Source of the DNA: Herbiconiux sp. VKM Ac-1786
GTDB taxonomy: Bacteria > Actinomycetota > Actinomycetes > Actinomycetales > Microbacteriaceae
Assembly: GCF_015350805.1 (NCBI RefSeq)
Contig: NZ_JADKSG010000001.1
Location: forward strand, 1,474,513-1,538,512
DNA length: 64,000 nt
Reading direction: 5' to 3'
A program made the translations under genes and the position numbers. Shown piece by piece: positions 46,755 to 51,680 of the stretch; the stretch's first letter is position 1, and each line of letters begins with the position of its first letter. The notes below the pieces were generated by a model. That model did not search any database. It was not told the origin of the DNA and was given only the letters and a program-made list of their open reading frames with translations.

Positions 46755-48884
46755 ATGACGAGCACGCTGAGAACGAGACGAACGACGGCCGCCCTGGCGG
46801 CCCTGGCGCTGGTGGCGGGGGGTGCGGCCGTCGCGGCCCCGGCGTCGGCGGCTCCCGGCACCCCGGCCGCCGGGAGCCCACCGGGTGCGCTGACCAATAC
46901 GGCGCACCTCGACTTCCTGCTCGACGAGGTGAGCCCGGCCGCGGTCGAGGGTCACTCGAGCTACCGGCTCGACGCCGACCCGTCGCTCACGCTGCCCTGG
47001 ACCTATGCCGACGCCCGCGACGCCGGCACCTTCGAGCGCGTCGGCGGTGGGCCCCTCGACCCCGCCACGGGCGACTACGGCCAGGGTGCCTTCAACAGCG
47101 ACGACGTCTCCCGTGCCGCCGTGGTCTACCTGCGGCACTGGCAGCAGACGGGCGACGAGGCCAGCCGCGAGAAGGCCTACGAGGTGCTGCGCGCGCTCGC
47201 CTACTTCCAGACGACGACCGGAGCCGACACCGGCAACGTGGTGCTCTGGATGCAGCCCGACGGCGAGCTGAACCCGAGCGCCGAGCCGGTCGAGCTGCCC
47301 GACCCGAGCGACTCCGAGGAGAGCTACTGGCTGGCCCGCTCGCTCTGGGCCCTCGGCGAGGGCTACGCGGCGTTCCGCGACAGCGACCCCGCGTTCGCGG
47401 CGTTCCTGCAGCAGCGCCTGCAGCTCGGCGTCGCCGCGGTCGACCGCGAGGTGCTCGACCGCTACGGCGAGTACGAGCAGGCCGACGGCGTCGAGGTGCC
47501 GGCCTGGCTGATCGTGAACGGGGCGGATGCCACGGCCGAGGCCGTGCTCGGCCTTTCCGCCTACGTCGAGGCCGCACCCGGCGACGAGGCCGTGCGCGAC
47601 AGCACGGCGAAGCTCGCCGAGGGCGTCGCGGCGTACGCCGGCATCACCGCAGGTGCCTCGGGGGAGGCGGCACGCGGCTCCGGCGGGGCGGGTTCGAGCG
47701 GGGACGCCGCCCAGTCGTGGCCCTACGGTGCGGCACTGCCCTGGGCGGAGTCGCGGTCGATGTGGCACGCCTGGTCGTCGCAGATGGCGGGAGCCCTGGC
47801 GCGCGCATCCGTCGCCCTGGACGATGAGAGCCTTCGGGCGCCCGCGATCGTCGAGAGCGCCCAGTTCGCGCCGACCCTGCTCACCGCGGGCGGGCCCGAC
47901 AACGGCTGGTACCCCTCGCCGACCGAGCGGGTGCAGATCGCCTACGGCGCCGACTCGCGCGTGCAGAACCTGCTCGCCACGGCCGACGCCGCCGGCCTGC
48001 CGGGTCTCGCCGACCTCGCGGGCGTGCAGGCGGCCTGGTTCTTCGGGCTCAACCCGGCGGCCGAGCCCATGTACGACCCGGCCACAGGGGTGACCTACGA
48101 CGGCATCCAGCCCGACGGGTCGATCAACCGCAACTCGGGCGCCGAGTCGACGATCCACGGGCTGCTGTCGATGCTGGCGCTGGATGCCCATCCCGACGTC
48201 GCGGCGCTGGCGACGTCGCTCACCACGCTCGAGGCCCGCGACGGGCTCACCGTCGTCGAGGCCGAGACCGCCGGATCGGGCGGCACGGTCGGGACCCCGG
48301 AGTCGAGCTGGACGGGCGAGTCGTCGTGGAGCGGCTCGTACCTCGCGGTGGCGAAGGGGCAGACGGCGAGCCTCGCGCTGCCCGCGCCGGCCTCGGGGCA
48401 GGCGGCGGACCGCATCGTCGAGCCGGTGCTGTGGCAGGTGGAGAAGGGCGGCACGACCCCGACGCCCAAGTCGCAGTGGAAGGCGGGGAACAAGCCGCTC
48501 GGCACGGTGAAGGCCGAGGTGGGGCCGCAGGGCATCACCGCGGTTCCGGGCGCGCTGCTGCCGGTGGCGCTCGACCGGCTCGTGCCGGCGGGTACCTCGG
48601 CGCTGACCGTGCGCGGCATCGGCGGCGAGACGAAGATCGACGCACTGCTCGTGCGGCCGACGGTGTCGAGCCTCCGCGCATCGGGCGCGAACGGCGGCTC
48701 GGCGGCGCTGGTGCAGAACTCGCTCGCCTCGGCCCAGGACGCGGTGGTCGGCTCGGCCGGCAGCGCGCAGACCCTCAGTGTCTACGACGGCAGCGGGGCG
48801 CTGGTCGCCACGCAGTCGATCGACGGGCCCACCACGGTGCGGCTGCCGGCGGCCGGGTTCGCGCTGGCGCTGGCGACCGACTGA
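46755..48884 (+). CDS. Secreted (alpha/alpha)6-barrel-like glycosidase candidate with CBM-like C-terminus
   Basis: 709 aa. Signal peptide (1-about 33, cleavage near ASAAPG). Residues about 45-485 have the repeated helix-hairpin pattern of (alpha/alpha)6 glycosidases, with WFFGLNPAAEPMYDP and INRNSGAESTIHGLLSMLALDAHP at its end. Residues about 490-600 begin TVVEAETAGSGG, as in CBM6/35-like modules, and the rest is a beta-rich tail. GGAAGG precedes the ATG, 34 bp after the GH130 stop. It probably acts on the polysaccharide whose fragments the transporter imports. No family could be assigned with certainty. Confidence 0.75.
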   Translation: MTSTLRTRRTTAALAALALVAGGAAVAAPASAAPGTPAAGSPPGALTNTAHLDFLLDEVSPAAVEGHSSYRLDADPSLTLPWTYADARDAGTFERVGGGPLDPATGDYGQGAFNSDDVSRAAVVYLRHWQQTGDEASREKAYEVLRALAYFQTTTGADTGNVVLWMQPDGELNPSAEPVELPDPSDSEESYWLARSLWALGEGYAAFRDSDPAFAAFLQQRLQLGVAAVDREVLDRYGEYEQADGVEVPAWLIVNGADATAEAVLGLSAYVEAAPGDEAVRDSTAKLAEGVAAYAGITAGASGEAARGSGGAGSSGDAAQSWPYGAALPWAESRSMWHAWSSQMAGALARASVALDDESLRAPAIVESAQFAPTLLTAGGPDNGWYPSPTERVQIAYGADSRVQNLLATADAAGLPGLADLAGVQAAWFFGLNPAAEPMYDPATGVTYDGIQPDGSINRNSGAESTIHGLLSMLALDAHPDVAALATSLTTLEARDGLTVVEAETAGSGGTVGTPESSWTGESSWSGSYLAVAKGQTASLALPAPASGQAADRIVEPVLWQVEKGGTTPTPKSQWKAGNKPLGTVKAEVGPQGITAVPGALLPVALDRLVPAGTSALTVRGIGGETKIDALLVRPTVSSLRASGANGGSAALVQNSLASAQDAVVGSAGSAQTLSVYDGSGALVATQSIDGPTTVRLPAAGFALALATD

Positions 48885-48909
48885 GTGTTTGGCAGTAAAT
48901 GAGCGGACT

Positions 48910-48943
48910 GGGGCAGTCCTGCCACTCGTGGCGGGATTGCCCC
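48910..48943 (+). terminator. Strong terminator of the carbohydrate operon
   Basis: Arms 48910-48925 and 48928-48943 pair over about 15 bp including two G-U pairs, with a small loop. It starts 26 bp past the stop of the secreted enzyme gene. Confidence 0.8.
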
Positions 48944-48948
48944 TTCCG

Positions 48949-48954
48949 TAGCGT
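48949..48954 (+). promoter_or_regulatory. -10 element of a leaderless promoter
   Basis: TAGCGT ends seven bases before the ATG at 48962, directly after the operon terminator. Confidence 0.5.
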
Positions 48955-48961
48955 TGCTGCC

Positions 48962-49117
48962 ATGACCTTCTTCTTCGTGCTCCTCGTCCTGGCGGCCGTC
49001 GCGGTCGTCGCCTCGGTGGTCGTCGTGCTGCGTGACGGCTACCGCCGCGTGCCGGTCCGTGCCGGCTGCGCCACGGCACCCGCCCTCGGCCCCGACGAGA
49101 AGTGGACGGCCGGGTGA
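48962..49117 (+). CDS. 51-aa single-span membrane peptide
   Basis: An N-terminal hydrophobic helix (residues 2-24) is followed by a basic segment (RDGYRRVPVRAG) and an acidic tail (GPDEKWTAG). TAGCGT seven bases upstream of the ATG supports the start. It stands between the carbohydrate-operon terminator and the FBP leader. Function unknown. Confidence 0.6.
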   Translation: MTFFFVLLVLAAVAVVASVVVVLRDGYRRVPVRAGCATAPALGPDEKWTAG

Positions 49118-49131
49118 CGTCGACCCGGGCG

Positions 49132-49137
49132 TAGACT
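49132..49137 (+). promoter_or_regulatory. -10 element in front of the FBP leader
   Basis: TAGACT with seven bases to the GTG at 49145, so the transcript would begin at the upstream reading frame. Confidence 0.55.
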
Positions 49138-49144
49138 TCTCAGC

Positions 49145-49234
49145 GTGCATCCGCTCGTCTCGCGCCCCTCAGGGGCACCCCTCACGGCCTCGGGCCGGCA
49201 GGAGGTCGTCGGCCGCTCGGCCGGCGGCAGGTAG
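49145..49234 (+). CDS. Candidate leaderless leader peptide (uORF), 29 aa
   Basis: A GTG seven bases after TAGACT opens a 29-codon frame (MHPLVSRPSGAP..., ending GGR then TAG). It has no membrane segment. Its position at the 5' end of a 200-nt leader with several stable hairpins, in front of an EF-G-binding protein gene, is what ribosome-mediated attenuation would require. It could also be a chance frame; composition alone does not prove coding. Confidence 0.4.
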   Translation: MHPLVSRPSGAPLTASGRQEVVGRSAGGR

Positions 49235-49297
49235 AGCCGTTCCCTCTCGCGCACCTTCGGCACCCCGGTGCCGCCTGGCGCGGCCTGTCGCCGCGCC
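49194..49297 (+). promoter_or_regulatory. Structured leader with hairpins upstream of the FBP gene
   Basis: Inverted repeats include GCCGGC at 49194-49199 with 49220-49225 (overlapping the uORF end), CGGCAC/GTGCCG with a 4-nt loop within 49259-49274, and a perfect 8-bp stem with a 5-nt loop at 49277-49297. They could form alternative structures, the last resembling a terminator. Confidence 0.45.
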
Positions 49298-49344
49298 CTG
49301 AACGAGACCAGCCCGCGGCCGCGTGCCCGGGCGACCGGAACAGG

Positions 49345-49860
49345 ATGACCATGACCCCCTTCACCGACGCGCAGCTGCGTGCCTCCTTCGTCAACACCTC
49401 CCAGCGCGAGCGGGCCGGCATCGTGCTGCCCGGCGCGGCCGGCGGCCCCGGTGCCCTCGCCGAGCTCCGCTGGGACGATCTCGACTACCTCGGCTGGCGC
49501 GACCGCCGCCAGCCCCAGCTCGGCTACGTCGTGGCCGATGTCGACGGCGAGCCCGTCGGCGTGCTGCTGCGCCAGGCCGAGGCCTCGACCCGCAGCCGGC
49601 CGCAGTGCTCGTGGTGCGACGACGTCACGCTGCCGAACGACGTCGTGTTCTTCGGCGCCAAGCGCGGCGGGCGGGCCGGGCGCAACGGCGACACGGTCGG
49701 GGCACTCGTCTGCGACGAGTTCCAGTGCTCGGCGAACGTGCGGAAGCTTCCGCCGCTCGCCTATCCGGGCTTCGATCGCGACGCGGCGCGGCTGCAGCGC
49801 ATCGAGGGGCTCCGGATGCACGTGCGGGCGTTCGCGCTCGGCATCCGCGACAGCGCCTGA
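49345..49860 (+). CDS. FBP-domain protein (EF-G-binding, FusB-like zinc finger)
   Basis: 171 aa. The C-terminal treble-clef zinc finger has CSWC (C88/C91) and CDEFQC (C123/C128), flanked by LRWDDLDYLGWRD and GRNGDTVG, as in FBP-domain proteins. FusB-type relatives bind elongation factor G on the ribosome and protect against fusidic acid; the role of chromosomal actinobacterial members is less clear. The ATG at 49345 or 49351 is possible. A 200-nt leader with a uORF precedes it. Confidence 0.85.
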   Translation: MTMTPFTDAQLRASFVNTSQRERAGIVLPGAAGGPGALAELRWDDLDYLGWRDRRQPQLGYVVADVDGEPVGVLLRQAEASTRSRPQCSWCDDVTLPNDVVFFGAKRGGRAGRNGDTVGALVCDEFQCSANVRKLPPLAYPGFDRDAARLQRIEGLRMHVRAFALGIRDSA

Positions 49861-49866
49861 CGCCGC

Positions 49867-50679
49867 TCAGCGCACCGAGCGGCGCTCGTACAGGATGCGC
49901 GACCACACGTACCCGCCCACCGCGAGCACGAGGCACCAGCCGACCGCGAGCACCGGGCTCCAGCCGAGCGGCGTGCCGAGCAGCAGCCCGCGCAGGGTCT
50001 CGATGATCGGCGTGAACGGCTGGTAGGCGGCGAAGCCCTGCAGCCAGCCGGGCATCGAGTCGGCGGGCACGAAGCCGCTGCCGAGGAAGGGCAGGAAGGT
50101 CAGCACGAGGGGGAGATTGCTCGCCGTCTCGACCGACTTCGCCTGCATGCCCATGGCGACGCCGAGCCAGGTGATCGCGAAGGCGGTCAGGGCGAGCACC
50201 CCCGCGACGGCGACCCACTCCAGCGGCCCGGCGGTCGGGCGGAAGCCGATCGCGAGGCCGACGCCGAGCACGAGCGCCACGGCGATCAGCGCCTGCAGCG
50301 TGTTGCCGAGCACGTGCCCCGCGAGCACCGCCGACCGGGCGACCGCCATGGTGCGGAAGCGGGCGGTGATGCCCTGGGTCATGTCCATCGAGACGGTGGT
50401 GGCGGTGCCGCCGGCCGTGCCCGCGATGGTGATGGCCAGGATGCCCGGCAGCACGTAGGCGAGATAGGCCTCCCGCCCGCCCGCCGGGTCGACCCCCGGC
50501 AGACCTGCGCCGAGGGTGCCGCCGAGCACGAACACGAACAGCAGCAGGATGACGACCGGGCCGATGATCGTGAAGATCGACAGGCCGGGGTAGCGCACCA
50601 TGTGCAGCATCGTGCGGTCGAGCATGGTGACCGCGTCGGCGATCACGTGGGACGGCCGCTGCGGAGTGATCGTCGTCAT
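49867..50679 (-). CDS. ABC-2 type exporter permease, DrrB-like
   Basis: 270 aa, six helices of the ABC-2 type with the conserved region DMTQGITARFRTMAVARSAVLAGHVLGN in the middle and MQAKSVETASNLPLVLTFLPFLGSGFVP later, as in daunorubicin-type exporters. Its ATG overlaps the ATPase stop (ATGA). It is the last gene of the RHH-DUF4097-ABC operon. Substrate unknown. Confidence 0.9.
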   Translation of the reverse strand: MTTITPQRPSHVIADAVTMLDRTMLHMVRYPGLSIFTIIGPVVILLLFVFVLGGTLGAGLPGVDPAGGREAYLAYVLPGILAITIAGTAGGTATTVSMDMTQGITARFRTMAVARSAVLAGHVLGNTLQALIAVALVLGVGLAIGFRPTAGPLEWVAVAGVLALTAFAITWLGVAMGMQAKSVETASNLPLVLTFLPFLGSGFVPADSMPGWLQGFAAYQPFTPIIETLRGLLLGTPLGWSPVLAVGWCLVLAVGGYVWSRILYERRSVR

Positions 50680-51680
50680 GATGCCGATCCCTTCGTCGTG
50701 CCGGCCCCGGTCAGCGCGAAGAACACGTCGTCGAGGTCGGGGGTGCGTATGCTCAGGTCCTCGATCGCGACGCCGGCCGCGTCGAGGCGGTCGAGCACGG
50801 TGCGGAGGGTGCCCGTGCCGCCGTCGCTCGGGACGGTCAGCACGAGGGAGGAGTCGTCGCGGGCGGCGCCGGGGAACAGGGTGGCGGCGGAGTCGTAGGC
50901 GGGAGCATCCGCGAATCTCAGGCGCAGGTGGCCACCGGGCACGAGCCGTTTCAGCTCCTCGGGGGTGCCCTCGGCGACGATGCGGCCGCCGTCGAGCACC
51001 GCGATGCGGTCGGCCAGGGCGTCGGCCTCGTCGAGGTACTGCGTGGTGAGCAGCACGGTCGTGCCCTCGGCGACGAGCTCGCGCACGATGCCCCAGAGGG
51101 TGCGGCGGCTGCGCGGGTCGAGGCCGGTGGTGGGCTCGTCGAGGAAGATCACGGCGGGCCGCTCGACGAGGGTCATCGCGAGGTCGAGGCGGCGCTGCAT
51201 GCCGCCCGAGTAGGTGGCGAGCGGCTTGCGAGCGGCCTCGACGAGGTCGAACTGCTCGAGCAGCTCGGTCGCGCGGGCCTTCGCGGCGCGGCGGCCGAGG
51301 TGGCGCAGGCGGCCCATCAGCAGCAGGTTCTCCTCGCCCGTGAGCAGGGTGTCGACGGCCGAGAACTGTCCGGTCAGGCCGATGGATGCGCGCACCGCGG
51401 CCGTGGCCCGCACGACGTCGTGGCCCGCGACCGTGACGGAACCGGCATCCGGTCGCACGAGGGTCGAGAGGATGTGCACCGCGGTCGTCTTGCCGGCGCC
51501 GTTCGGGCCGAGCAGGGCGGTGACCGTGCCGGGTGCCACCGTGAGGTCGACGTCGTCGAGCACGACCTTGTCGCCGTAGGACTTGCGGAGGCCGCGCACC
51601 TCGATGGCGGGGGTGATGGCGGTGCCCCCTGCCGTGGCTGCACCTCGCGCGGCGGCTGCGGAGGCGGCCGGGCGGGTCAT
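50676..51680 (-). CDS. ABC exporter ATPase, DrrA-like
   Basis: 334 aa. Walker A GPNGAGKTT near 58-66, signature YSGGMQRRLDLAM, Walker B VIFLDEPTTGLD and an H-loop counterpart in LLTTQYLDEAD, as in DrrA (Gln replaces the His). A C-terminal region of about 90 residues matches the drug-exporter subfamily. An Ala-rich 20-residue extension precedes the domain. Both ends overlap neighbours by 4 bp (ATGA). Confidence 0.92.
   Translation of the reverse strand: MTRPAASAAAARGAATAGGTAITPAIEVRGLRKSYGDKVVLDDVDLTVAPGTVTALLGPNGAGKTTAVHILSTLVRPDAGSVTVAGHDVVRATAAVRASIGLTGQFSAVDTLLTGEENLLLMGRLRHLGRRAAKARATELLEQFDLVEAARKPLATYSGGMQRRLDLAMTLVERPAVIFLDEPTTGLDPRSRRTLWGIVRELVAEGTTVLLTTQYLDEADALADRIAVLDGGRIVAEGTPEELKRLVPGGHLRLRFADAPAYDSAATLFPGAARDDSSLVLTVPSDGGTGTLRTVLDRLDAAGVAIEDLSIRTPDLDDVFFALTGAGTTKGSAS

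Follow-up and report, generated by a model that had tools for sequence, protein, structure and literature searches.

FusB-type proteins are fusidic-acid resistance factors of staphylococci, and the staphylococcal LP-fusB leader peptide acts by translational attenuation. FusB releases EF-G locked by fusidic acid (PMC8161019), and a short leader frame that precedes a FusB-family gene of staphylococci is named aj1-leader peptide (LP)-fusB (PMC12561750). In other systems, the ribosome-binding site of ermC and ermA of S. aureus stays masked as long as no ribosome is held on the leader frame (PMC9332259), the toiL uORF of E. coli topAI senses several ribosome-targeting antibiotic classes and relieves translational repression (PMC12121999), and leuL, trpL and ilvL of Streptomyces lividans are leaderless attenuator peptides, some of them without U-rich terminators (PMC8079986). 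In the literature searched, we found no published description of the leader element of FBP genes that is reported here.

The leader that we analysed lies upstream of an FBP gene of Herbiconiux sp. VKM Ac-1786. Like LP-fusB, it has a short leader frame 5' of a FusB-family gene, but it belongs to a different phylum, and its product has the C-domain only whereas the staphylococcal FusB has two domains. By description, features of the Herbiconiux-type leader are its leaderless start, the conserved hairpins and predicted base pairing between the ribosome-binding site and either end of the uORF. The erm-type systems share with our proposal a leader frame and a hidden ribosome-binding site released by a held ribosome; they differ in that the masking strands of the FBP leader would be the start of the uORF and the segment at its stop codon. 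A similar uORF-based relief of translational repression is described for toiL, but toiL controls a toxin-antitoxin operon and couples to Rho, whereas the uORF analysed here has a leaderless start and goes with FBP. The S. lividans peptides are likewise leaderless short uORFs in actinobacteria; they differ in that they contain codons for the amino acid that regulates them and precede biosynthesis or tRNA ligase genes, with none of the eight listed preceding FBP. The FBP leader would be a leaderless attenuator in which the 5' end of the transcript itself masks the downstream start.

The window, i.e. the whole stretch of 64,000 nt that was analysed, contained the following features, numbered from its first letter.

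49132..49137, plus strand: -10 element TAGACT, 7 nt 5' of the uORF start codon
49145..49234, plus strand: leaderless uORF of 29 codons (MHPLVSRPSGAPLTASGRQEVVGRSAGGR, then stop), GTG start at 49145, TAG ending at 49234
49145..49152, plus strand: segment N, the uORF start GUGCAUCC, paired in the predicted fold to 49343-49349, across the first AUG of FBP
49185..49197, plus strand: hairpin 1 of the consensus fold, CGGCC-UCG-GGCCG, with pairing in 94.0% of cells and changes on both sides in 3 of 5 pairs
49201..49206, plus strand: GGAGGU within the uORF, conserved in the leader comparison
49208..49225, plus strand: hairpin 2, GUCGGCCG..CGGCCGGC, with pairing in 97.5% of cells and changes on both sides in 4 of 7 pairs
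49229..49234, plus strand: rare Arg codon AGG and stop TAG; AGR is kept at this place across leaders
49229..49244, plus strand: segment P2, the stop codon with the bases 3' of it; the minimum-energy fold has GUUCC (49239-49243) paired to GGAAC (49337-49341)
49277..49297, plus strand: 8-bp spacer stem of the earlier note, at chance level in shuffles
49333..49353, plus strand: ribosome-binding region of FBP, GACCGGAACAGGATGACCATG, which contains two in-frame ATGs; putative target of N and P2
49345..49860, plus strand: FBP gene (FBP_C, FusB/FusC-like treble-clef domain) by Pfam, PDB profile and predicted fold; start possibly 49351

The earlier note had read a TAGACT, seven further bases and a GTG opening a 29-codon frame that ends 110 nt before an FBP gene. 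This layout was borne out at 49132-49234, and the next gene indeed encodes FBP_C (PF16571, E 7e-46), a protein of 169-171 aa. The uORF stop is 110 nt from the ATG at 49345 and 116 nt from the second in-frame ATG at 49351. The latter is probably the likelier FBP start, because the starts of the relatives align there and an AACAGG was seen by eye 6 nt before it. Four cysteines (C86, C89, C121 and C126) were invariant among 37 sequences, as in the treble-clef zinc domain of FusB and FusC. A profile of the 37 relatives gave FusB-family chains as top matches (2yb5, E 7e-5) in the C-terminal half, from about residue 100, and the predicted fold (pLDDT 93.8) had FusC and FusB as its top structural matches. 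The N-terminal EF-G-binding domain of FusB (PF07299) had no match in the genome. By profile and predicted fold FBP matches FusB/FusC, but without the FusB N-domain.

A protein search found FBP in 16/16 genomes of the genus. The FBP of the window has an ortholog in 14 of them, and the uORF was present at 14/14, the kind of conservation in relatives that the earlier note had proposed to look for. It is this conservation and not the stability of the leader fold that excludes chance for the uORF; the whole-leader fold was ordinary (z -0.59), with 52/200 shuffles equally stable. The uORF core in the leaders consists of GGAGGU, then a 7-bp hairpin, then AGR close to the stop. A pattern of this core matched 29/398 genomes of the family, and a reversed control matched none. 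FBP followed at 27/29 of these matches, five of the 27 being genus places already known, and the other two (L032, L033) lay within a long coding frame, presumably that of a glutamine synthetase. With the covariance model R1, matches at E <= 0.01 were found in 81/396 genomes of the order. Of the best 30 places (L060-L089), three of which belonged to the training set, 29 precede FBP; 20 weaker matches, selected partly with FBP positions in view and not a random sample, comprised 10 that precede FBP and 10 that were coding or unrelated. FBP itself was found in 171 of these 396 genomes, so many FBP genes have no such leader.

In GTDB genomes, 58/62 matches of an exact pattern precede FBP. The 59th, in Demequina (L172), ends at the edge of the locus, and FBP stands there in L088; the other three look like chance matches. 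Genera with the leader include Leifsonia, Frigoribacterium, Clavibacter, Agrococcus, Arthrobacter, Paeniglutamicibacter, Kineosporia, Pseudokineococcus and Gordonia, so that outside Herbiconiux the leader precedes FBP genes of other Microbacteriaceae and of Kineosporia, Pseudokineococcus, Demequina, Arthrobacter and Gordonia. A class-wide search of 394 genomes with model R2 (E <= 0.001) gave matches in 16 genomes; L203 was the one real new case from beyond the order, and four further weak matches were not FBP leaders. The sole strong match in the own genome was the place in the window, the next of eight matches having E 0.004. Among the places inspected, no downstream gene other than FBP was seen under leaders of this type (class I), and the exact pattern had no match in viral contigs. 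A class I leader is also carried by the public record of 'Corynebacterium-like bacterium B27' (L123). A divergent class I-like leader with GGGGGT for GGAGGT and a frame end ..AAMR before the stop (L111) precedes an FBP gene that the core pattern missed.

Alignment A2 comprised 96 leaders in 93 distinct rows, 40 of them obtained via a pattern demanding GGAGGT and AGRTAG, 13 via a pattern demanding GGAGGT, 34 via model R1 and 9 via protein; the last subset is unbiased and the R1 subset in part so. The 9 protein-found leaders all had GGAGGT and TAG, and the 34 R1-found leaders had GGAGGT in 33, TAG in 15, AGR in 29 and an in-frame start in 30. The first 36 leaders had TANNNT 6 or 7 nt 5' of a GTG or ATG opening a short frame, although their uORF starts had been picked partly by this context, and their peptides end in [GR]RxEVxG, two or three residues, and [AV][GD]xR. 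A fairer test is the count over all 96: in 86 of them TANNNT at a spacing of 5-8 preceded a leaderless start that shares the frame of the core, in 3 such a start was found only off-frame, and in 7 none was found. Among these ten without an automatic in-frame start, six had by eye an in-frame GTG after a degenerate -10 element, and L082, L085, L142 and L173 had none. A stop within 16 codons of the conserved GAG was found in frame 0 in 91/96 leaders and in the other two frames in 18 and 0, with 40 of the 96 having been chosen for TAG. For the two uORF hairpins, 96.2% of paired cells in the 96 leaders were standard pairs and 7/12 hairpin pairs changed on both sides, a value reached by 0/500 shuffles, with the reservation that A2 was aligned to model R1 and the pair counts therefore favour its structure.

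Pairing between the uORF and the FBP ribosome-binding site was analysed by comparing each segment against the site of its own leader with the same segment against the sites of other leaders. Three of the 96 leaders were dropped for an unusable uORF-FBP gap and similar ones were merged to 82, of which 74 had an assigned uORF start. For N, a 15-nt window beginning with the uORF start codon gave -1.88 kcal/mol (p 0.0002, 74 leaders), and six windows from -60 to +5 of the uORF start gave no signal (p 0.15-0.84). The N signal sets in with the uORF start codon; around the FBP start it extends from about -30 to +12 and is strongest at -18..0. P2 gave -1.43 in 82 leaders (p 5e-5, peak -18..-6; reversed control p 0.05). 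With 21 strictly non-redundant leaders the residual was -2.85 kcal/mol for N (first ~18 nt, p 5e-5) and -1.36 for P2 (p 0.006), and seven controls in the same test had p 0.07-0.56. These p-values for N and P2 include some window choice, as the windows were first located by scanning. Hairpin 1, the core and the codons beyond +9 showed weaker matched complementarity too, so part of the pairing signal may be general to the uORF. Examples of predicted P2 pairing are GTCCTGTCGA/TCGACAGGAC (L158) and GTCCTGTCTG/CAGACAGGAC (L133), and one for N is TGAACACC/GGTGTTCA (L181).

In full folds, N and P2 pairing together exceeded 0.3 in 38/73 leaders (52%) as compared to 28% of 361 ribosome-binding-site swaps. 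P2 pairing alone was not above the swapped control (p 0.75); the swap test thus supports N and the sum of N and P2, but not P2 alone. In 36/74 leaders neither N nor P2 paired 3 kcal/mol better than expected. In the minimum-energy fold of the leader in the window the N and P2 pairs close the uORF into a domain, and in the centroid fold only the N pairing is kept, with CAUCC (49148-49152), and the P2 pairing is lost. GGAGGUNNYC was also tried as an anti-ribosome-binding-site sequence and set aside as weak (p 0.03).

Comparison of the leaders shows a conserved leaderless uORF, hairpins 1 and 2, complementarity of N and P2 to the ribosome-binding region, and a FusB-like product. As in an attenuator, the ribosome-binding site is complementary to leader sequence that a ribosome would cover, and the short uORF has its start, frame and stop kept. 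We propose that the leader is probably a ribosome-occupancy switch acting mainly on FBP translation, i.e. a translational attenuator. Transcription would start at or beside the uORF start codon, as the conserved spacing of the -10 element suggests. With no ribosome on the uORF, N and P2 would pair with the FBP ribosome-binding region, giving a closed domain in which the FBP start is hidden. Slower elongation, termination or recycling, as under an EF-G-directed drug, would keep ribosomes on the uORF, where they would mask N and/or P2 and so allow FBP to be translated. The FBP protein, as a relative of FusB and FusC, would then free EF-G. GGAGGU, hairpin 2, the rare AGR codon and the stop probably set the place and length of the ribosome wait. 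The direction of the switch, its inducer and the function of FBP in these bacteria are what we infer from this comparison; since FusB frees fusidic-acid-locked EF-G, EF-G-directed stress would by analogy be the likeliest inducer.

As an alternative, the element could be a structured RNA bound by a ligand or protein (e.g. FBP, or the 30S subunit via GGAGGU) that controls FBP, with the uORF incidental. In favour of this reading, the constraint acts at the nucleotide level. The base 5' of GAG was G in 96/96 leaders whatever the residue, and in 43/43 of those not selected by a pattern, and AGR is preferred over CGN. Two leaders, L082 and L085, have a leaderless start that does not share the frame of the core (by eye, the frame opened there ends near the usual place of the stop), and pairing of N and P2 would by itself need no translation. 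Against it, the start codon, -10 spacing, frame and stop are kept while the length from start to GAG varies from 4 to 19 codons, segment N is the uORF start itself, and the hairpin loops are variable by eye. We consider a ligand- or protein-bound RNA unlikely. A search against Rfam 15 gave no match at gathering score or with a convincing E-value, the hits being a tRNA in L110 and three weak ones below gathering.

Translation of the uORF could instead drive transcription attenuation through Rho-dependent or unusual terminators. C/T-rich stretches were seen by eye after the uORF stop in many leaders, and E. coli topAI couples uORF-controlled translation to Rho termination (PMC12121999). No intrinsic terminator-like site was found in 48850-49950, so intrinsic termination is not indicated, and the best-fitting partners of the uORF ends among those tested were the FBP ribosome-binding site, which makes this mode of control, in our judgement, distinctly unlikely. 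A transcription start downstream of 49234 is also unlikely, given the conserved -10 element and the pairing of the uORF start. The earlier note had sought the control structure in the stems of the spacer, including an 8-bp stem just before the gene. Such a stem exists (49277-49284 with 49290-49297), but it ends 47 nt 5' of the ATG at 49345, and perfect inverted repeats of 8 bp or longer occur in 507/2000 base-composition shuffles of the 117 nt at 49235-49351. GC-rich sequence readily yields such stems by chance, and we rejected the spacer stems as a regulatory structure. Covariation lies instead within the uORF and in the matched pairing of its two ends to the ribosome-binding site of FBP. The idea of a uORF-controlled attenuation leader is otherwise supported by the conserved leaderless uORF, the FusB-like gene and a fitting structure, without the spacer stems. 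A frameshift fusion of the uORF and FBP was rejected as well, as the distances between the two have no common frame. A strong hairpin, GGGGCAGTCC..GGATTGCCCC at 48910-48943 of the window, lies 3' of a 709-aa gene and is terminator-like but without a T-run.

It was also considered that the uORF could encode an arrest peptide that senses one drug by its nascent-chain sequence (PxGR.EVVG...AG.R). The peptide residues E-V and the distal A-G-x-R are kept across several families, and all four Val codons are used (GTC 64, GTT 13, GTG 12 and GTA 6 of 96). However, the PxGR part falls on the arms of hairpin 1, and short leaders such as MSSQEVVGARCADIR (then stop) lack it; hairpin 1 is absent from the shortest leaders, e.g. 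L088, L089, L182-L185 and L190-L192. GAG was kept in 95/96 leaders, and the distal Arg was AGA or AGG in 89/96 by one expression and in 85 by another, 40 of the 96 having been selected for AGR, with replacement by CGN seen only once (CGA). For comparison, AGR made up 4% of Arg codons in 41 ORFs of the window picked by GC3. This constraint on codons, together with the two off-frame leaders, suggests a translated uORF whose RNA shape and ribosome position outweigh the peptide, and leaves a drug-specific arrest peptide quite improbable. That the uORF encodes a small functional protein with no role in FBP control would account for the conserved reading frame, but is highly improbable given its adjacency to FBP (29/30 top R1 places, 58/62 matches of the GTDB pattern), forms as short as 15 codons and the pairing with the FBP ribosome-binding site.

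In other families, a different uORF (class II) often precedes FBP, mostly with its own Shine-Dalgarno-like sequence. Its peptide is mostly ..[GE][VA]A..AC.. and its RNA core mostly GRGGYGGCC-n5-GGCCUGC, and the core was found in 27/33 upstream regions inspected (upstream of FBP in L093-L095, L097, L100-L110, L112-L115, L118, L119, L217, L218, L221, L222, L231 and L232), six of the 33 having been picked by eye from 20 fetched. In 22 non-similar leaders, a segment 12-30 nt 5' of the uORF matched its own FBP ribosome-binding site (-2.40, p 0.0001), and so did the 18 nt 3' of the uORF stop (-1.68, p 0.002), both windows being the best of 13. Leaderless mRNA starts are preferred by 70S ribosomes. 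A bolder form of the translational attenuator, which we put forward tentatively and hold to be rather unlikely, is that the uORF senses ribosome recycling: its leaderless start codon lies within the strand that would cover the FBP start, so unsplit 70S ribosomes left over from failed EF-G/RRF recycling would load at the bare 5' end or linger at the AGR-stop and so free the gene of the EF-G-releasing protein, and classes I and II would make the same fold as part of an actinobacterial EF-G-distress regulon. If this were true, the FBP genes would form a widespread native regulon of this kind, and the leaderless class I and the Shine-Dalgarno-led class II cores would have converged on the same fold.

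A sequence-defined leader that is conserved in front of FBP genes in several actinobacterial families suggests that these bacteria have a native, inducible response to EF-G trouble, and the leader could serve as a ready reporter for finding inducers of FBP. Herbiconiux also has a second FBP paralog (L015-L030; G000:C2:1235491 in the own genome) with no uORF core upstream. Its start was leaderless at the FBP codon itself in 14/14 resolved of 16 loci, L027 and L029 being left out of the count, and three further FBPs (L090-L092) were likewise leaderless at the FBP codon. Downstream of the FBP gene of the window and convergent with it, an ABC exporter pair is encoded on the minus strand (49867-51680); its ATPase scored above the NCBIfam drrA cut-off and its permease matched DrrB models below the cut-off.
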